Shown in pieces: positions 9,149 through 23,633 of a DNA stretch of 23,633 nucleotides. The notes below the pieces were generated by a model. That model had not been told where the DNA came from. It worked only from the letters and a program-made list of their open reading frames with translations, and did no database searches. How positions within the stretch are numbered: position 1 is the first letter of the stretch; every line of letters starts with the position of its first letter. The stretch is taken from positions 1-23,633 of the forward strand of contig JAUXGF010000001.1 of the NCBI GenBank assembly GCA_030622395.1. Reading direction: 5' to 3'. A program made the translations under genes and the position numbers. The DNA comes from Calditrichaceae bacterium (GTDB taxonomy: Bacteria > Calditrichota > Calditrichia > Calditrichales > Calditrichaceae).

Positions 9149-10108
9149 TCATAGATCATATATGAGTGATCCCGCCGCTTTCTTACCGGCGGCGATAATT
9201 TTTTCTGCTTTGGTAAAATCGAAAAACTGATAATTATTCAATTGAGGCTGAATTAAAATATCCGCCGGATTTTCCTTTAATTGAAGTGTCATAATCATAT
9301 TTTCCATTGTAGTCCCAATTTGGATCATTTGCCGCCGTATACCGGGTTTTGATAAATTTTGAAATTCAGCTTGTTTACTATTATTCTTTGCCGTTCCGTT
9401 TTCATTAAAAATGCTTAGAAGTCTTTGAAAAAATGATGATGAGCTGGATGCGGCTAAAATATTCCTTGGCGCACTTATATTTCCAGAATTCAATTTATGA
9501 ATATGGCGGTCAATCGGAGGCATAACGTTCACTGCAATAATGAAATCCGCTCCCATTTCTCTGGCAATATTTATGGGCAAGGGGTTAACCACACCTCCGT
9601 CCACAAGGTAACGGCCGTCTATTTTCATCGGCGTAAACAAAAAAGGAAAGGAAATACTGGCCCGAATGGCATTAACCAGCGATCCTGAATTAAGAATAAT
9701 TTCTTCACCTGTCCAGATATCTGTCGCCACGCTGGCAAAAGGAATTTTCAGGCGCTCTATTTTTTGCTCGCCCAAAAGGGCGATAAGAAATTTTTGCACC
9801 CTTTTACCATCTAATAAACCATCCAGTTGTAAACGCTTAGGGAATAAAATTTGCGCTATTTTAAGCCGGTTGGTTTGGCAGGCAATTTCTTCTATCTGTC
9901 CGGGACTTAAACCGGCGGCATAGGCTCCGCCTATCATTGCGCCCATACTGGATCCAACTACAATATCAATCGGAATATGATGTTCCGTTAGCGCTTTCAG
10001 TACTCCTATATGCGCTAACCCTCTGGCTGCGCCGCTGCCCAAAACCAGAGCCGTTTTCGGACGGTTTCGGGTTCCCTTTATCCCTTTTATAATTTTAACA
10101 TTTTCCAT
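9149..10108 (-). CDS. Patatin-like phospholipase, copy 2
   Basis: Complete 319-residue patatin/RssA-type acyl hydrolase. The oxyanion loop GSGAARG (24-30), nucleophile elbow GSSMG (52-56, Ser54) and VDGG (169-172, Asp170) are all present, so the Ser-Asp dyad is intact. Compared with copy 1 it has about 14 extra N-terminal residues and an extra low-complexity stretch rich in Ser (about residues 216-226) before the C-terminal region. The C-terminal segment, IQPQLNNYQFFDFTKAEKII, corresponds to IEPDTTQYTLFDFLKGKELI in copy 1, so the two are paralogues along their length. The start overlaps the acyltransferase stop by 14 bp, indicating translational coupling: one protein adds acyl chains and the other can remove them. 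GAGAAG precedes the start. Substrate is unknown. Confidence 0.92.
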   Translation of the reverse strand: MENVKIIKGIKGTRNRPKTALVLGSGAARGLAHIGVLKALTEHHIPIDIVVGSSMGAMIGGAYAAGLSPGQIEEIACQTNRLKIAQILFPKRLQLDGLLDGKRVQKFLIALLGEQKIERLKIPFASVATDIWTGEEIILNSGSLVNAIRASISFPFLFTPMKIDGRYLVDGGVVNPLPINIAREMGADFIIAVNVMPPIDRHIHKLNSGNISAPRNILAASSSSSFFQRLLSIFNENGTAKNNSKQAEFQNLSKPGIRRQMIQIGTTMENMIMTLQLKENPADILIQPQLNNYQFFDFTKAEKIIAAGKKAAGSLIYDL

Positions 10109-10724
10109 AAATGCTTCTCATAACATTAATTTTTTGTAAAATCTTTTTTCTTACTTCTTCTGTATGATTTTGAAGTTCTTTTTTATCTATGCGTACTCCT
10201 GGGATGCTAAACCGTATCGTATCTAAAAAGCTTATATATATATCAGACGGACGGGGGAAAAATTGCCCTGTACTCAACGCTTTCTCAGTTCCTATAATAG
10301 CCACAGGCACCACCGGTGCGTTACACTTAACAGCCAACCTTAAAAAGCCGCTTTTAAAAGGTAATAAATCAGGTTTGTCATTTAGTTTGCCTTCAGGAAA
10401 AATTAGTAGCAGCTTATTTTTTTCCAATAGTTGCTTAGCTTCAATCATAGCGTTTTTATTATCTTTTGCATCGCCAACTGGAATGCCCCCGATAACTTTC
10501 AAAAACAACATTTTTAATTTGCTGTTAAATACCCCAGCTTTAGCGAATGTATAAATTCTTCCTTTCATAACAGCCACCATTAAAAGACCGTCCAGTAAAC
10601 TAGGATGATTTGCCACCAAAATTGCCGGCCCTTTTTCCGGTATATTCTCCAAATTGCGTACGGATATGTCGAGCATTCCCCAAAAATAGAATTTTAGAAT
10701 ATTTTTTATTAAAAAGTAAATCAT
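10095..10724 (-). CDS. 1-acyl-sn-glycerol-3-phosphate acyltransferase-like protein (PlsC/LPLAT family)
   Basis: Transfers an acyl chain to lysophosphatidic acid or a related acceptor at the cytoplasmic membrane. At 209 residues it is at the short end of the family. The catalytic HX4D motif is NHPSLLD (His40, Asp45), and the acceptor-binding motif appears as FPEGKLND (109-116). A further block, PVVPVAIIGTE, matches the usual VPVxIxG motif. The N-terminal ~17 residues are hydrophobic and likely lie in the membrane. AGGA precedes the start at a normal distance. It begins 13 bp after the UbiB-type gene and overlaps patatin 2, so these three are almost certainly one transcript. It might be the housekeeping PlsC or a specialised acyltransferase for this cluster. 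Confidence 0.9.
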   Translation of the reverse strand: MIYFLIKNILKFYFWGMLDISVRNLENIPEKGPAILVANHPSLLDGLLMVAVMKGRIYTFAKAGVFNSKLKMLFLKVIGGIPVGDAKDNKNAMIEAKQLLEKNKLLLIFPEGKLNDKPDLLPFKSGFLRLAVKCNAPVVPVAIIGTEKALSTGQFFPRPSDIYISFLDTIRFSIPGVRIDKKELQNHTEEVRKKILQKINVMRSIYGKC

Positions 10725-16678: not shown

Positions 16679-19630
16679 TTACTTTCTGTCCATTTTATTT
16701 TTGTAATTATTTACTACAGATTTGAATTTCTTTTTAGCGCCGTTGATCTTCTGCAGCGCTTCAAGGCGGTTAAAATCTCCTACAAATTTAGCTTTACTTA
16801 ACAGGATAAGCGCCGGCAGAAAAGTAATGGCGCCAAAAGCGCTGATCAACATACTGGCTGCCGTCAGCCATCCAAAACGCTGCATGGGTACTAGTTCACC
16901 TAAGACCAGCACGATAAAACCCATGGCTACTGTAAGAGCATTAATTAAGATTGCCCGCCCGGTGGTTTTTAGCGTTTTTTCTAATGCTTCAAACTCCGAT
17001 TTATTACGGGCAAATTCTTCTTTAAAGCGGGATGTAAAATGAATGGAATAATCGATGCCTATTCCGATGGCGATACTGGCGATCATGATCGTTGACATAT
17101 CGAGTGGTATATTTAGATAGGACATCAGCGCAAAATTCAGCAATACGGTTAAGGCAATAGGCGAAACGGCAATCAATCCGCCAATAAGCGACTTTAATTG
17201 TATCATCAGGATCAAAGTTACCAATGTAAAAGCGATGATCAGGCTTTGAAACTGGCTTTTCATAATGCTTTCATCCAGGCGGGTGAAAATAAGCGGCATA
17301 CCCGATTGTTCCGCCTTAAGTTCAATTTTTTCACCTTTTAAAGAATTCTTTTCAACAAGAGCAAGGGGCAGGGCTAAATTGTTATCATTCAGAACCCAAA
17401 GGTCGTCGCGTAATTCATCACGGAATTTGGCTTTCGATTGTAATTCCTGCGGGAACAAAGGCAGCAAACGCTCAACCCCCGCCATAATTTTTTCGTATTT
17501 GTAAGTTTCGTTTAAGATGACCTGTATGGAATGGGCGGTTTCCGGTAGTAATTCCTGATCTTCCGCAGAAAGAAAAGGAAGACGCCGCTTTAATATTTGC
17601 AGAAGGCTGCTCTGCGAAGGAAGGACGCCGCTTTCCAATTGTTTAACAATATCCCGCCGAATTAAGACGGCTCGTGTTTCATCTTCAATAATGATCTCGG
17701 ATTCATCAAGAAAAAAGTCGTCCATTTGCTCTCCGATTATTACCAGAGCATTATTATCAAATTGTACTGTTTTAATCTTCTGGATTGCCAGGATTTTGTT
17801 TTTTAATTCCTTTTTATTAACGTCTGCATCTTCATCGCGTTTATATGTATCCAAAAGAATTGATGATGCTATTTCATCAGTAAGATATTCCTGAATACCC
17901 GGCTGATTGACGTCAACATTTTGAATGGCGATAAGATTTTTATCTAACCTGTTAGTAACATAATCATTGATAGTATCTACAACCTTCAGGACTTCCTGGG
18001 TTTTCACCGTACCGAGATTAGCCTGTACAATACCTTCGCTGGCTTCGGCATTAACCAGTTGTTCCATTACCGATTCGCCCTCCATAAAAAACCACAAATT
18101 CGTAACGCCTTCGCGCCTATCGGGAATTGTATAATGCCGGTTCATTACTTTGTTCATTTCACAGATCAGGTCAGCCACTGATTGGGGATGATTCACATAG
18201 GGAACCGTTTCCATAAATTTTTCCAGTTTGCGCATTTCCTTTAACACAAAGGGATTTTTCATATCGCCGGTAACCACAATTTGAATCGGGGTCGAGCCGC
18301 CAAAATTTTCTTCCATCATTTCTTCGGCGAGACGAATATCCGTATCCTTCTTGAAATACTCCGTCATATTTACTTCACGATGCAGATTTGGGATACCGAT
18401 TACGGCAAGTACAATAATAATTCCGGCTGAGAATACAATCAGCTTTTCCTTTCTCAGAACAAAATGCGCTAATCGATCCATAAAACGTGCAAGTAAATTA
18501 TCCTCTTTACCCTGTGCTGTTTTTCTTATTTTAGGTTGTTTGAGATAGGATAAAATAGCCGGTATAAAGGTAATGGAAACGATTAGGGCAAAGCCCACGC
18601 CGATACCGGTGAATACGCCGAAGTGGGTGACTACTGTAAGATATGATCCTGCAAAAGCAAAAAAGCCGATCATCGTTGTCGCCCCGGCAAGAACAATGGG
18701 CACGCCCACTTCGGCCAGCGCGTCCTTAATGCAGGTTTCTTTATCCGGGCAGCTCAGAACGCTCTCTTTGTAACGGGCAATCATGTGAATACCGAATGCG
18801 GAACCGATGGCAATAAGAAGCACCGGCATCCCGTTCGATACGATAGATTGGTCAATACCGAGAAGCGTCATTAATCCCATTGCCCAGATAGTGCTGATAA
18901 GCACAGCGCTTAACGGTAACAATACGCCTCTCAGAGTGCGAAAACTAAAATAGAGTGTAATAAGTAACATGATGATGACAATCGGTATGAGCCGTGCCAT
19001 ATCAGTTTCCACTATATCGTTGATCTCCAGCATTTGCATGGGCATACCGGAAAAATAAATGCGGTAATCAGAGGCTGTATCCCAGGTAATTTTTTGTATC
19101 TCTTCTGCGATAGCTTCTTTTTCTGCCTGTTGCTTTAACCGGGCAATGATCAGTGTTATTTTACCATCAGGTGAAATAATGCGCCCGTTGTACATATCCT
19201 TGGCAAGCGCATATTCCCGAATATTCTGCAGCTCTTTAGGATCAGACGAAATATTGTTTTTATCAATGAGTCTTCCAACCTCCAAACCGCCTTCCACACT
19301 TTTAATATCCAGAATATCCGTTAGACTCATTACCGTAGCCACACCGTCAACAGCCTTAATTTTTTCAGTCAGGTTATTTATAGTTTGCAGGGTTTTATAC
19401 TCAAAAACATTGTCTGCTTCAATACCTACCAAAGTCAGAGCTGTACCGGCGTATTCATCCCCGATTCGATTAAACAGAACTACCGCAGGATCGTCCGGTT
19501 TGAGATATGTTAAAACATCGCTGTTTACTTTAGCGTCTTTTAATTGATATCCGAAAAATATTGTAATTATAATAGTGCCAATTATAATTATTAATCGATA
19601 TTTCATTACGAGATCGGCAATTTTCTTCAT
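16679..19630 (-). CDS. RND superfamily exporter (MMPL/HAE3-like, HpnN-like)
   Basis: Large inner-membrane transporter of 983 residues with two homologous halves. Each half has one N-terminal membrane helix, a large periplasmic domain and a five-helix block. Helix 1 is about 12-27; the first block starts near 213 and ends near 360; the second half starts near 393 and its block begins near 794. GSAFGIHMIARYKE in the first half and GIGIDYSIHFTSRFKEE in the second are matching family motifs, the latter with the aspartate expected for proton coupling. The second periplasmic domain is long, which explains the length. Members of this group export hydrophobic molecules such as mycobacterial lipids or hopanoids. 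GGAG five bases before the ATG is a good ribosome site. Upstream lie a weak terminator and a possible TetR site; downstream are LolA-like and DUF3108 genes. Confidence 0.92.
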   Translation of the reverse strand: MKKIADLVMKYRLIIIIGTIIITIFFGYQLKDAKVNSDVLTYLKPDDPAVVLFNRIGDEYAGTALTLVGIEADNVFEYKTLQTINNLTEKIKAVDGVATVMSLTDILDIKSVEGGLEVGRLIDKNNISSDPKELQNIREYALAKDMYNGRIISPDGKITLIIARLKQQAEKEAIAEEIQKITWDTASDYRIYFSGMPMQMLEINDIVETDMARLIPIVIIMLLITLYFSFRTLRGVLLPLSAVLISTIWAMGLMTLLGIDQSIVSNGMPVLLIAIGSAFGIHMIARYKESVLSCPDKETCIKDALAEVGVPIVLAGATTMIGFFAFAGSYLTVVTHFGVFTGIGVGFALIVSITFIPAILSYLKQPKIRKTAQGKEDNLLARFMDRLAHFVLRKEKLIVFSAGIIIVLAVIGIPNLHREVNMTEYFKKDTDIRLAEEMMEENFGGSTPIQIVVTGDMKNPFVLKEMRKLEKFMETVPYVNHPQSVADLICEMNKVMNRHYTIPDRREGVTNLWFFMEGESVMEQLVNAEASEGIVQANLGTVKTQEVLKVVDTINDYVTNRLDKNLIAIQNVDVNQPGIQEYLTDEIASSILLDTYKRDEDADVNKKELKNKILAIQKIKTVQFDNNALVIIGEQMDDFFLDESEIIIEDETRAVLIRRDIVKQLESGVLPSQSSLLQILKRRLPFLSAEDQELLPETAHSIQVILNETYKYEKIMAGVERLLPLFPQELQSKAKFRDELRDDLWVLNDNNLALPLALVEKNSLKGEKIELKAEQSGMPLIFTRLDESIMKSQFQSLIIAFTLVTLILMIQLKSLIGGLIAVSPIALTVLLNFALMSYLNIPLDMSTIMIASIAIGIGIDYSIHFTSRFKEEFARNKSEFEALEKTLKTTGRAILINALTVAMGFIVLVLGELVPMQRFGWLTAASMLISAFGAITFLPALILLSKAKFVGDFNRLEALQKINGAKKKFKSVVNNYKNKMDRK

Positions 19631-19733: not shown

Positions 19734-20318
19734 TTAACTCCTCTTTTCAATTCCCTTAAATAAAATCTTTAGTAAAGTATTTATATTTGTTTCAATCTGT
19801 TCTGCGGGAATTTCAATTGTCCACTGAAATTCAAACCCCTTTAAAGCTGCCAGAATAGCTTCAGCCGCCAGCGCGGCATTCTCAACTTTAAAATCACCGC
19901 TTTGAATGCCTTCCTGTAAAATATTGCTGATCAGAGTGGTTTCGAATACGTCGAAAGACTGACGCGCTTTAGTCACGAAAGAATAATGATCTAAATACTC
20001 GTCGCGCAGTGCGCTGTAATAGTTAATAAGGTCTTTCAATGCGACCATACGCGTTATAAAATAAGCCTGCATTTTCTCTTGCGGCGATTTTTCAGTATTC
20101 ACAGCGACAAGTATCTTATCTTGCAGCGTCCGCCCCTCTTTATCTATCACTTCCTGAAATATAGATTCTTTACTTTTAAAATAATAGTATATACTGGCTT
20201 TCCCCATGCGCGCCTTTTTTGCTATATCATCAATGGTAGTTTTAGCCAGCCCGAATTTGGCGAACAAGTTTTGTGCGATTTCCAAAATAAATGTTTTTCT
20301 TTCAGCTCTGTCGATCAT
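19734..20318 (-). CDS. TetR/AcrR-family transcriptional regulator
   Basis: Dimeric one-component repressor of 194 residues, the usual length. The N-terminal DNA-binding domain runs from about residue 8 to 55: ILEIAQNLFAKFGLAKTTID, then DIAKKARMGKASIYYYFKSKE, the classic TetR helix-turn-helix ending in YYYFKSKE. The C-terminal all-helical part (about 65-190) binds the ligand and is not assignable by eye; it is rich in hydrophobic and aromatic residues, compatible with an acyl or lipid-like ligand. It is the first gene of the minus-strand run, 104 bp upstream of the RND exporter, so control of exporter expression is the likely role. GGAG lies just before the ATG. A shared TATTCGACT motif before both genes supports autoregulation. 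Confidence 0.9.
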   Translation of the reverse strand: MIDRAERKTFILEIAQNLFAKFGLAKTTIDDIAKKARMGKASIYYYFKSKESIFQEVIDKEGRTLQDKILVAVNTEKSPQEKMQAYFITRMVALKDLINYYSALRDEYLDHYSFVTKARQSFDVFETTLISNILQEGIQSGDFKVENAALAAEAILAALKGFEFQWTIEIPAEQIETNINTLLKILFKGIEKRS

Positions 20319-20943: not shown

Positions 20944-21159
20944 ATGCAAAGAAAAAATGTCGTTTCCTCAAATCTGAAATCTGTTGGTTATGATGAAGAT
21001 TCAAATATTTTAGAAATTGAATTTTTAAGTGGAGGGATATATCAATATTTTAACGTTCCTCATAATGTTCATGCCGGTCTCATGAATGCAAGTTCTCATG
21101 GCACTTACTTTGACAGAAGCGTTAAAAAAGCTGGTTTTAAGTATAAACGTTTAAGGTAA
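20944..21159 (+). CDS. KTSC-domain protein, 71 residues
   Basis: Stand-alone KTSC domain, a small fold named for its resemblance to the lysyl-tRNA synthetase C-terminal region and found alone or fused to nuclease-type domains. Diagnostic stretches are SSNLKSVGYDEDSNILEIEF (8-27), GGIYQYFNVPHNVH (30-43) and SSHGTYFDRSVKKAGFKYKR (50-69), covering the whole domain; the protein has little else. Binding to nucleic acid or a protein partner is a guess. AAGGAG seven bases before the ATG is the strongest ribosome site of the cassette, so this looks like the first gene. It is followed after 11 bp by the GIY-YIG gene. Its function in the cassette is unknown. Confidence 0.85.
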   Translation: MQRKNVVSSNLKSVGYDEDSNILEIEFLSGGIYQYFNVPHNVHAGLMNASSHGTYFDRSVKKAGFKYKRLR

Positions 21160-21170
21160 GCGATTCATTT

Positions 21171-21623
21171 ATGAAATCTATAAAATTGTTTTTTGATGAA
21201 GCCAAAGAATTTGAACCCCGTTTTATTCAACCACTTATGGGCATAAGAGGCTTATATTTTATTTTTTCTAAAAAAACTGATATTAATTATCCTTTTAGGA
21301 AATCTAAATTGCTTTATATCGGAATGAGTGAAAAGAAAACCAATAGTATCGGAAAAAGATTATCCGATCATTATGATGGAAAATCAGGAAATATAGGTAT
21401 AACCAATTATAAGAACACAGAACAATTGTATCTCACTTACATTAATTATGAAATGTTGCAAAATCTGTGGGAATACAGAGTGGAAGATTTGGAAAGTTAT
21501 TATATATTGGATTTTGTAAAACACTATGGCGTTTATCCTATTTGTAATAATAAAACTGGATTTGATATTTTGAAGTCCAATTTGGATTTAACTATTGAAA
21601 TAGATTGGTCTTATTTTGAGTGA
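21171..21623 (+). CDS. GIY-YIG nuclease-like protein, 150 residues
   Basis: Single-domain GIY-YIG-type protein. The two name motifs are GLYFIF (27-32) and LLYIG (47-51). They are followed by the catalytic-type arginine in GKRLSDH (61-67, Arg63), a glutamate in DLESYYILDF (106-115, Glu108) that fits the metal-binding residue, and a closing asparagine in YPICNNK (122-128). All expected catalytic positions appear present, so DNA cleavage is plausible. The insert between YIG and the glutamate is longer than in minimal GIY-YIG domains. No DNA-binding domain is attached, so targeting would have to come from a partner. It is packed between the KTSC gene (11 bp) and a 61-residue gene (10 bp), in one operon with the SMC-like ATPase. 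The nuclease effector role is inference. Confidence 0.78.
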   Translation: MKSIKLFFDEAKEFEPRFIQPLMGIRGLYFIFSKKTDINYPFRKSKLLYIGMSEKKTNSIGKRLSDHYDGKSGNIGITNYKNTEQLYLTYINYEMLQNLWEYRVEDLESYYILDFVKHYGVYPICNNKTGFDILKSNLDLTIEIDWSYFE

Positions 21624-21633
21624 GGTTTTTTAA

Positions 21634-21819
21634 ATGAGTGATGAAATAAAAAGCGGAAAACAAATATTGGATGAGTATTTTCAGGAAATTAAAAGTATGC
21701 TTAATGTTGATGAGAATGTTGTTAATTGCATAATTGATTTATATGAGACGGGGAAGCTTTCTGATAAAAACCTGTCCAATGCACTTTTGGAATTACGGGA
21801 GAAACCCGCGAATGAATAA
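21634..21819 (+). CDS. Hypothetical protein, 61 residues, coupled to the ATPase
   Basis: Not recognised. It is a small acidic protein with two predicted helices: about residues 8-22 (KQILDEYFQEIKSML) and a C-terminal part with DLYETGKLSDKNLSNALLEL. There are no Cys residues or membrane segment. GAGG from the end of the preceding gene serves as its ribosome site, and its stop overlaps the ATPase start in ATGAATAA (8 bp), a sign of coupled translation and probably of stoichiometric partnership. It could be an adaptor between ATPase and nuclease or an inhibitor. The conserved-looking operon position, not the sequence, is the argument that it is real. Confidence 0.7.
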   Translation: MSDEIKSGKQILDEYFQEIKSMLNVDENVVNCIIDLYETGKLSDKNLSNALLELREKPANE

Positions 21820-23633
21820 AATAAAGAATCTTTCCATAAAAGGGCTGCGAGGAATAAAAAAGGAAATATCTTTTCCGTTAGATGGAAAATCAATTTTATT
21901 ATACGGTGAAAATGGTTCTGGCAAAAGCAGTTTTACGGATGCTCTGGAGTGGTTTTATTATGATAAAATAGAACATTTATCTAGCGAAGAAATAGGTAGA
22001 AAAGGAATCGAAGGATTAAGAAACATCCATATGGATGATACAGAAGATGGCAGTATTAAAATTGATTATTCAGATTCAAAATTTAACTCTTCTAAAACAA
22101 TAAATCCCAAATTAAGTACTGATTACACAAATACCTCAGCAGATTTTGTAACATTCTTACAGGAATTACAAAAAGAACAAATTATTCTTCGATACAGAGA
22201 TTTGGTTCATTTCATATTAGCTACCAAAGGAGAGAAATTAACCGCTCTTTCTGAAATCATAGGTTTTTCTGAGGTAATTAAAACCAGGGATGTACTAAGG
22301 AAATCATTTAAGGCGTTAAAAAAAGATATAAAAAGTTACAATTTTGAAGCACAAATAAATTATCAACAAAACCAAATAATAGAACAACTTGAACAAAATG
22401 TTGTTTCTGATGATCAATATTTTGGCGTCTTAAATACGATACTCAATAAAATTGCCTTGGGTAAAACAGTTTCTAAATTTGAAGATATTGACTCTATTCT
22501 TGAATTATTAAAGACATCTGATAATACACAAATAATTGAAAAACAAGTATTCCTTGAAAAAATAAAAACTACGACAAATCAGTTATTGATATTCACTGTA
22601 AATATTAAAAAAGATTATGAGAATTATTACAAACAATATCAGGTAATTAGCGCTGATATTGAGAAGCTTAACAAAATAAAACTGGGTTCTCTGCTTACAG
22701 AAGGCGAAAGAATTTTAAAGGATGAAATTATTAAAGAGGAAGTTTGCCCTTTATGCTTACAACCAAAAAAGAAAATAGAATTGTTAAGAGAACTGCAGAT
22801 AAGAATTGATGAATTACAAAAGTATAAAGAAGAAAAAAATACCTTAGATGTATTAAAGTCCGGTCTACTATCAGAACTTACCAAATGCGAAAATTCTATT
22901 TTGAATATTCTGAATGATACTAATATTGAATTAGAGGAAAATAAATTATTTAAAATCCAATTATTAAAAACTAATGAGGAATTAAAAAATTATCAGTTTG
23001 AGGTTAAGAAAGATATTTTGAAAGACGAAAAACTGATTGTCCCAAAAGAATTAATCATAAATAATGACAATTTTATAGGAATTGAAAAAGTTGCTAATGA
23101 ACAAATAGAACTACTTAAAGAAAGTAAAAAAGATGATGACAAATTTGATTTGCACAGCAAAATCGTCCTTTCAAAAAATGCCTATCTAGATATCAAGAAA
23201 TTAAAAAAATCAAAGAAATTAATTGAAAACCAACAATACACATTAGAAAAAATATACTCTGCATTTATAAAAAAAATGGAAAGTGGTTTTGAATCATTTC
23301 TAACCCATCTTTCTAAAGACATCAATGACCTTTATATCTTTATGAATCCGGGTGAACATATTGAAGATATTAGTTTAGTCTCATTGCAGAAAAATGATGA
23401 GTTTTCAGGTATTACAATTCAATTTAAGTTTTATGATAATGAAATAACTCCACCTAATAAATATTTGAGTGAATCACATCTAAATTGCTTAGGTATCGCC
23501 TTCTATTTAACATCAGTTAAAACATTTAATAAAACCAATAAATTCTTTGTAATGGATGATGTGATTTCCAGTTTTGATGGAACTCATAGGGCACGATTTG
23601 CTCATTTATTAAATGAGAAATTTTCAGATTATC
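21812..23633 (+). CDS. Rad50/SMC-like ATPase with CPLC hook (C-terminus cut by window edge)
   Basis: P-loop ATPase with an ABC-type head split by a long coiled coil; 607 codons are visible with no stop. Walker A is YGENGSGKSSF (31-41), after an N-terminal LSIKGLRGIKKEISF strand typical of RecF/SMC/AAA_15 proteins. The middle is lysine- and glutamate-rich helix with EEVCPLC (309-315), a CxxC hook like the Rad50 zinc hook, near the centre of the coil. The second half of the head has LSESHLNCLGIAF (552-564), a degenerate ABC signature, and Walker B FFVMDD (578-583), where aspartate replaces the usual catalytic glutamate, followed by the D-loop-like SSFD. Such ATPases sense or bind DNA in defence systems (Lamassu LmuB-like, RloC-like and others). 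Translation is coupled to the upstream small gene. Confidence 0.88.
   Translation, partial: MNKIKNLSIKGLRGIKKEISFPLDGKSILLYGENGSGKSSFTDALEWFYYDKIEHLSSEEIGRKGIEGLRNIHMDDTEDGSIKIDYSDSKFNSSKTINPKLSTDYTNTSADFVTFLQELQKEQIILRYRDLVHFILATKGEKLTALSEIIGFSEVIKTRDVLRKSFKALKKDIKSYNFEAQINYQQNQIIEQLEQNVVSDDQYFGVLNTILNKIALGKTVSKFEDIDSILELLKTSDNTQIIEKQVFLEKIKTTTNQLLIFTVNIKKDYENYYKQYQVISADIEKLNKIKLGSLLTEGERILKDEIIKEEVCPLCLQPKKKIELLRELQIRIDELQKYKEEKNTLDVLKSGLLSELTKCENSILNILNDTNIELEENKLFKIQLLKTNEELKNYQFEVKKDILKDEKLIVPKELIINNDNFIGIEKVANEQIELLKESKKDDDKFDLHSKIVLSKNAYLDIKKLKKSKKLIENQQYTLEKIYSAFIKKMESGFESFLTHLSKDINDLYIFMNPGEHIEDISLVSLQKNDEFSGITIQFKFYDNEITPPNKYLSESHLNCLGIAFYLTSVKTFNKTNKFFVMDDVISSFDGTHRARFAHLLNEKFSDY

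Follow-up and report, generated by a model that had tools for sequence, protein, structure and literature searches.

Four tightly spaced genes occupy positions 20944 to 23633 of contig JAUXGF010000001.1 from a Calditrichaceae bacterium (assembly GCA_030622395.1, 76.6% complete). The window analysed here is this entire contig of 23,633 nucleotides, and the four genes at its right end encode, in order, a KTSC-domain protein, a predicted GIY-YIG nuclease, a protein of 61 amino acids (aa) and a Rad50/SMC-like ATPase with a CxxC hook. Because the window is the whole contig, the ATPase lacks roughly 200 C-terminal residues and nothing can be read to its right. A sequence-only reading of this DNA had described the four genes as A+T-rich, tightly spaced (11 bases, 10 bases, then an overlap of 8) and running opposite to the preceding 20 kb. 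The open reading frames bear out this spacing and orientation (the gene preceding KTSC, at 19734-20318, is on the minus strand), and the guanine plus cytosine (GC) fraction is 0.281 in 20944-23633 vs 0.382 in 1-20318. The same reading had proposed that all four genes form an undescribed defence cassette. We narrow that proposal to the last three genes, hereafter the trio, which represent a conserved, laterally spread cassette of scattered distribution and, as predicted from the genes, a likely undescribed defence system.

By its motif residues and its predicted fold, the product of the first trio gene can be placed in the GIY-YIG superfamily. Its score of 19.2 bits against the Pfam GIY-YIG profile lies below the cut-off of 22.6; the GIY and YIG motifs and the catalytic Arg, Glu and Asn are invariant in all 57 nuclease rows aligned. 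The catalytic Glu (Glu108) stands at what we take to be the position of the metal-ligand Glu of GIY-YIG nucleases. The best matches to the predicted fold were likewise GIY-YIG nucleases, with UvrC N-domains also among the matches. A Foldseek search with the nuclease returned nothing significant, T4 EndoII being second in rank, and a sequence search of solved structures with it gave unrelated weak matches only. The third gene is recognized by the SMC_N profile (44.2 bits; Pfam cut-off 40) and has a Walker A motif and a CPLC hook (Table 1).

The ATPase heads of the trio are of Rad50/SMC type, and the complete proteins, usually about 808 aa long, carry an extra C-terminal domain that combines an R-x3-E...S-H pattern with a zinc ribbon. 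In an alignment of 48 rows, R676, E680 and S746 are found in 48 and H747 in 47. Shorter or cut frames occur as well (for example in L011, L014, L030, L035, L039, L052, L054, L059 and L071, where L and a number denote our labels for loci), several of them at contig ends, and the match in L071 covers just 46 aa. A fold comparison of the ATPase covered residues 2-651, with the C-terminal domain outside, and returned no RloC or PrrC row; it is uninformative on that domain.

Table 1. Coordinates of features in the window and in other loci (aa, amino acids; residue numbers of the ATPase follow locus L019).
Feature	Source	Position	Strand	Remarks
KTSC-domain protein, 71 aa	window	20944..21159	+	Pfam PF13619, 85.9 bits (cut-off 25)
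Predicted GIY-YIG nuclease, 150 aa, core gene 1	window	21171..21623	+	
G-L-Y (GIY motif)	window	21249..21257	+	from sequence; G27, Y29 in 57/57
Y-I-G motif	window	21315..21323	+	from sequence; Y49, G51 in 57/57
Glu108	window	21492..21494	+	57/57 rows
Small protein, 61 aa, core gene 2, putative adaptor	window	21634..21819	+	
Rad50/SMC-like ATPase, core gene 3	window	21812..23633	+	ATG at 21812; first 607 codons; contig end reached
Walker A, G-E-N-G-S-G-K-S	window	21905..21928	+	from sequence; G38, K39, S40 in 48/48
CPLC hook at coiled-coil tip	window	22745..22756	+	from sequence; CPxC in 48/48 long relatives
ABC signature region, S-E-S-H	window	23468..23479	+	from sequence; S-E-S invariant in 48-row alignment
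Walker B/D-loop, D-D-V-I-S-S-F-D	window	23555..23578	+	D583, D584, D590 in 48/48; Asp-Asp, no Glu/Gln
WYL-like protein	L008	1810-2468		
WYL-like protein	L010	3376-3717		
WYL-like protein	L013	3042-3365		
WYL-like protein	L018	2273-2587		
WYL-like protein	L026	4399-4734		
WYL-like protein	L033	5541-5888		
WYL-like protein	L044	9674-9970		
WYL-like protein	L056	3064-3360		
WYL-like protein	L140	9002-9295		no Pfam match; grouped by eye
SNF2-AIPR-type III operon	L137	3248-15890		SNF2 (DrmD, 714 bits), 72 aa, ATPase, AIPR, type III Mod (669), YhcG (PDC-S02, 483), type III Res (609)
SNF2-AIPR-type III operon	L138	4914-16001		similar-sized frames, same order; ATPase alone scanned

Which genes belong together was judged from a search by nuclease similarity, with one genome per species, that yielded 65 loci; three more full-length loci came from relatives of the host, one of them coinciding with a locus already held (L005 and L067 are one). 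A script counted 67 loci, equal to 66 distinct ones, with L072 left out. In all 66 distinct genome loci the GIY-YIG gene, the gene of about 61 aa and the ATPase match lie on one strand, and in every one of them the small gene's homologue sits between the other two. The four-gene neighbourhood proposed by the sequence-only reading holds for the trio and fails for KTSC, which occurs in just six of these loci (L004, L015, L025, L033, L034 and L063; a few could be missed because some contigs start within about 1 kb of the nuclease) and is the next gene upstream in four (L004, L015, L025 and L034). The unit is therefore one of three genes, and we reject KTSC as a component in favour of an occasional upstream passenger. 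The excluded L072 is an observation in its own right: at about 10080-10577 in an Endomicrobium it holds a nuclease fragment alone, with no ATPase or small gene found, and may be a decayed copy.

None of the Pfam, NCBIfam and PADLOC families exceeds its cut-off with the middle protein. Among 294 other Bacteroidia it had no strong match and five weak ones, to the SRP54/Ffh N-domain (E 1.8e-4 to 8.5e-4). The three of these five loci that were read (L087, L089 and L090; E 1.8e-4 to 4.6e-4) hold what we take, by eye, to be Ffh-like proteins; the resemblance is probably due to chance, and we set aside kinship with the SRP54/Ffh N-domain.

Since the loci were found through the nuclease, linkage is shown from the nuclease side. 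Across 56 loci the distances of nuclease and ATPase correlate (r 0.81, reached by none of 2000 permutations), as expected of genes travelling together, with a mean identity of 0.667 for the nuclease vs 0.441 for the ATPase. Approached from the ATPase side, with at most two candidates per genome scored among the matches listed, the 394 other genomes from the L019 host's phylum yielded two with a match at E <= 1e-30, both of them in an operon other than the trio (L137 in genome G463 and L138 in G543; Table 1). These two ATPases, of about 775 aa and with a CPVC hook, share the C-terminal plan of the trio ATPases, including zinc-ribbon-like cysteines and an R-N-E-V-G-C-H stretch (the HEPN pattern R-N-x4-H) whose His aligns with H747. 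A gene of 72-73 aa lies just upstream of the ATPase in both, as the small gene does in the trio; in contrast, no GIY-YIG gene is among the frames named in 16 kb, the partners are others, and the motif is R-N-x4-H instead of R-x3-E...S-H. PADLOC names the other parts of L137, gives its ATPase weak cross-matches only and finds no match for its small gene. Going by position and size, we would guess that the small proteins of the two settings are homologous. The operon suggests that a small protein and a hook ATPase make up a portable sensor core to which different effectors are attached.

The trio is both widespread and rare; complete copies are present, for example, in Flavobacterium sp. I-STPP5a (L019) and Candidatus Brocadia pituitae (L015). 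Full-length nuclease matches are 57-91% identical to the window nuclease, and the 56 loci in the nuclease tree carry 11 phylum labels, some rows being unlabelled; among the host's relatives, 3 of 97 other genomes have a full-length nuclease. The tree does not follow the phyla cleanly, with five changes for Bacteroidota and two for Planctomycetota in a quick tree with many weak forks, and of the 45 loci that span 12 kb or more, 43 have a lower GC in the trio than elsewhere in the locus. One copy lies on a plasmid (L073 4238-12450), with the nuclease on the opposite strand and divergent from the small gene and ATPase, the three still being adjacent. Nearby are recombinase, Mu-transposase, TniB and TniQ genes, surroundings that we presume to be Tn7/Tn5053-like. 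In three Pedobacter records (L064, L065 and L066) the trio's reading frames have identical lengths and scores, which may reflect recent spread or shared descent.

Seven neighbour clusters were classed by their representatives as restriction or defence; of 60 loci, 23 have such a cluster no farther than 10 kb from the trio, and 13 have one within 200 bp. Enrichment was measured in 48 genomes in which the trio was located, its neighbourhood being taken as 10.5 kb and four Pfam families being matched genome-wide. SduA_C (Shedu) had 4 of its 11 genome-wide matches near the trio (expected 0.07), HSDR_N 4 of 42 at 60 bits or more, weaker matches being left out (expected 0.26), and N6_N4 methylase 9 of the 150 among the matches listed (expected 1.06); the TetR control had none of 150 among the matches listed (expected 0.84). 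Shedu, HsdR and N6/N4-methylase genes are thus 8 to 60 times commoner near the trio than expected, with P values that are optimistic because the defence families were chosen after the neighbours had been seen.

Some individual arrangements stand out. In L030 (by cluster only), L031 (fused), L036 and L069 the nuclease is preceded, at a distance of 2-3 bp, by the end of type III Res-Mod genes, and in L140 a Mod gene comes after the trio. L008, L009 and L010 each carry SduA_C some 100 bp upstream; an OLD-TOPRIM-type gene, KTSC and the trio follow one another in L015 and L034 (the latter by cluster); and in L056 a gene matching AAA_13, the Pfam family of RloC, at 452.9 bits (693-2954) stands upstream of the trio with one small gene between. 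A WYL-like protein of about 97-115 aa also recurs directly before SduA_C or the nuclease (Table 1), two copies having weak matches to Pfam WYL (E 0.003 and 0.02). In the window itself, positions 1-20318 hold chromosomal-looking genes on the minus strand. Ten of the other contig proteins were scanned (AMP-binding, LysE, NAD synthase, two radical SAM, glycosyltransferase, ABC1, PAP2, LolA-like and TetR); they look like ordinary chromosome, and nothing defence-like was found among these ten, a 983-aa membrane-protein frame at 16679-19630 being outside the scan.

From the genes and their surroundings, it is probable that the trio defends against phages or mobile DNA. In our best reading the set combines a Lamassu-like gene order, an RloC-like ATPase and a free GIY-YIG nuclease. 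The fuller explanation, in which nuclease, 61-aa protein and hook ATPase act as one complex against phages or mobile DNA by the mechanism that follows, with KTSC an occasional neighbour, has in our judgement an even chance of being correct. The hook ATPase would be the sensor, two copies pairing through their CPxC hooks, and its Rad50-type heads would clamp unusual (broken or replicating) foreign DNA. ATP-driven engagement of the heads would then be relayed by the small middle protein, and this relay would license the GIY-YIG nuclease to cut the clamped DNA. The RloC-like C-terminal domain of the ATPase might act as a second effector, cutting RNA to halt the cell when the attack on DNA fails.

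That this C-terminal domain cuts RNA is a possibility to which we give somewhat less than even weight. Full-length local hhalign places LGNPIRIYLE on LPNAVRRFLE of RloC and SHDNPF on SHQNQF, and the trio ATPases keep the His, but not the Arg, of the HEPN pattern R-x4-6-H. One of eight C-terminal pieces weakly matched AbiLi (E 0.0018) and JukA (0.023), and one of two pieces scanned gave DUF4145 at E 0.12. More tentative still is the picture of a two-nuclease machine, in which one hook ATPase with a 61-residue adaptor would drive DNA cutting by GIY-YIG and also carry the RloC-like RNA-cutting domain, its portable sensor core serving other operons with different weapons. The order of events that belongs to it, in which phage DNA would be destroyed first and translation then shut down by way of the same sensor, is equally tentative.

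Several results weigh against the explanation of the trio as one defence complex with this mechanism. Default hhalign of the C-terminal part with RloC aligns 17 columns (probability 1.2); of 60 column shuffles, 2 attain the local RloC score and 4 the global one; and global alignments with RloC leave the S-H out of register. The spacing of Glu and His falls at 65-67 in 33 of the 44 rows matched, vs 36-52 in RloC, none of the eight C-terminal pieces matched the PADLOC RloC or PrrC models, and the L137 ATPase, for all its R-N-x4-H, has no Pfam HEPN match. The window ATPase itself is without the C-terminal domain, as the contig ends first. On the side of defence, the three enriched families were picked after inspection of the trio's neighbours, and in 37 of the 60 loci all seven annotated defence clusters are absent from the 10 kb around the trio. 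Phage records gave no match, viral contigs no confirmed relative and plasmids one; on these same counts we reject the idea that the trio is a phage or plasmid gene set.

Among the other explanations, the one that survives best is a translation stop of RloC type, in which the C-terminal HEPN-like domain would be the main effector and the GIY-YIG protein would only cut or sense DNA ends as a trigger. The trio ATPases resemble RloC and PrrC in their Rad50-like ATPase, CxxC hook, C-terminal R-x3-E...(S)H and restriction-gene neighbours, and in length (L019, 809 aa; Geobacillus kaustophilus RloC, 804 aa). The plasmid ATPase passes the AAA_13 cut-off of 36 with 47.9 bits (L019, with 14.6, is below it), and the AAA_13 gene near the trio in L056 points the same way. 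The scores speak otherwise: on the PDC-S06 (RloC) models the trio ATPases reach at most 53.1 bits, vs 415-430 on the best model for three RloC controls (proteins with relatives named wobble nucleotide-excising tRNase, one named RloC) and 119 for L075, a distant AAA_13 protein. Plain RloC membership is rejected on these scores. The trio differs also in its mostly wider Glu-His spacing, its zinc-ribbon-like C-terminus and its constant small and GIY-YIG partners, and a nuclease better conserved than the ATPase would be odd for an accessory. We regard this explanation as unlikely.

A still less likely view, to our mind, is that the trio is a Lamassu/ABC-3C system in which GIY-YIG has replaced LmuA and the 61-aa protein is a very small LmuC. 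The sequence-only reading had drawn this comparison, and it stands as far as gene order goes: effector, small middle gene and hook ATPase follow one another in 66 of 66 loci, which is the Lamassu layout in the available part of a review of SMC-based immunity (PMC10586767), where such a hook is described as well; the trio ATPases have a CPxC hook. PADLOC moreover ranks LmuB first or second among the names that it gives to the scanned ATPases of the trio. Membership by profile is another matter. Seven trio ATPases, including the window's partial one, score 45-97 bits on the LmuB models PDLC03859 and PDLC03865, whereas nine proteins of 634-776 aa in 148 genomes of the L019 phylum, taken as LmuB on score and length alone, score 184-488 on PDLC03859; two more proteins follow these at 107 and 89, and SbcC-like frames of more than 1000 aa reach 82.8. 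PDLC03865 finds some match in 233 of 247 genomes, the best at 84.6 with three candidates scored per genome. The L050 and L073 ATPases, at 92-97 bits, are slightly above this SbcC-like background (83-85) and far below the nine, and Lamassu membership is rejected on these scores. The trio differs further in its GIY-YIG effector, its 61-aa middle protein and its ATPase, which at about 808 aa has an extra C-terminal domain and has Asp-Asp at Walker B in 48 of 48 rows. LmuB, as far as that part of the review goes, is about 650 aa long with a Gln that is general, not universal, at Walker B, and GIY-YIG is not among the effectors given there (PMC10586767).

Two explanations outside dedicated defence complexes fare worse. 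A repair or genome-maintenance module, in which a Rad50-like motor would work alongside a nuclease of SbcCD or UvrC kind, would suit the Rad50/SMC-type heads and the UvrC N-domains among the fold matches; it is highly improbable for a set so rare and scattered (the nuclease in 3 of 97 relatives' genomes, a strong small-gene match in 0 of 294 Bacteroidia), A+T-rich relative to its flanks and accompanied by restriction and Shedu genes. Most improbable of all is that GIY-YIG is simply the restriction enzyme of neighbouring methylases, for although 9 of 60 loci have an N6/N4-methylase or type III cluster no farther than 10 kb away, including the four at 2-3 bp upstream, the neighbours vary (type I, type III, Eco57I/MmeI-like), a type III set comes with a Res of its own, and the 37 loci noted above have none of the seven clusters.

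Returning to the preferred reading, that of a three-gene defence complex, the combination is, as the sequence-only reading had suspected, unnamed: PADLOC, NCBIfam and Pfam scans name no such system, and in the NCBIfam scan all families stayed below their cut-offs. Because PADLOC models name neither the nuclease nor the small gene, the trio will probably escape scans with defence-system profiles. The top PADLOC row for the window ATPase is mad3 of MADS (53.7 bits), one partial cross-match among many, and no PbeC model exceeds 41.5 bits with any trio ATPase that was scanned. In the portions of the open-access literature that our searches returned, no description of a set of nuclease, 61-aa protein and hook ATPase was found.

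Partial parallels to the trio do exist. The DndD/CxC ABC ATPase-DndE pairs likewise join a hook ABC ATPase to a small partner, with URI (GIY-YIG) nucleases nearby; as far as the accessible part of that account extends, they differ in a DndE with two ribbon-helix-helix units and in a CxC hook (PMC10853773). PD-T4-3 and PD-lambda-1 are defence systems with a GIY-YIG domain, and the portion of their description available to us mentions no matching ATPase or small partner for them (PMC10952713). Should the three-gene complex prove real, it would offer, in three genes of about 3 kb with one 61-residue partner, a compact system for studying how nucleases are turned on by Rad50-like sensors, and it would link Lamassu-type three-part complexes with the single-protein RloC anticodon nucleases, which are otherwise treated apart.

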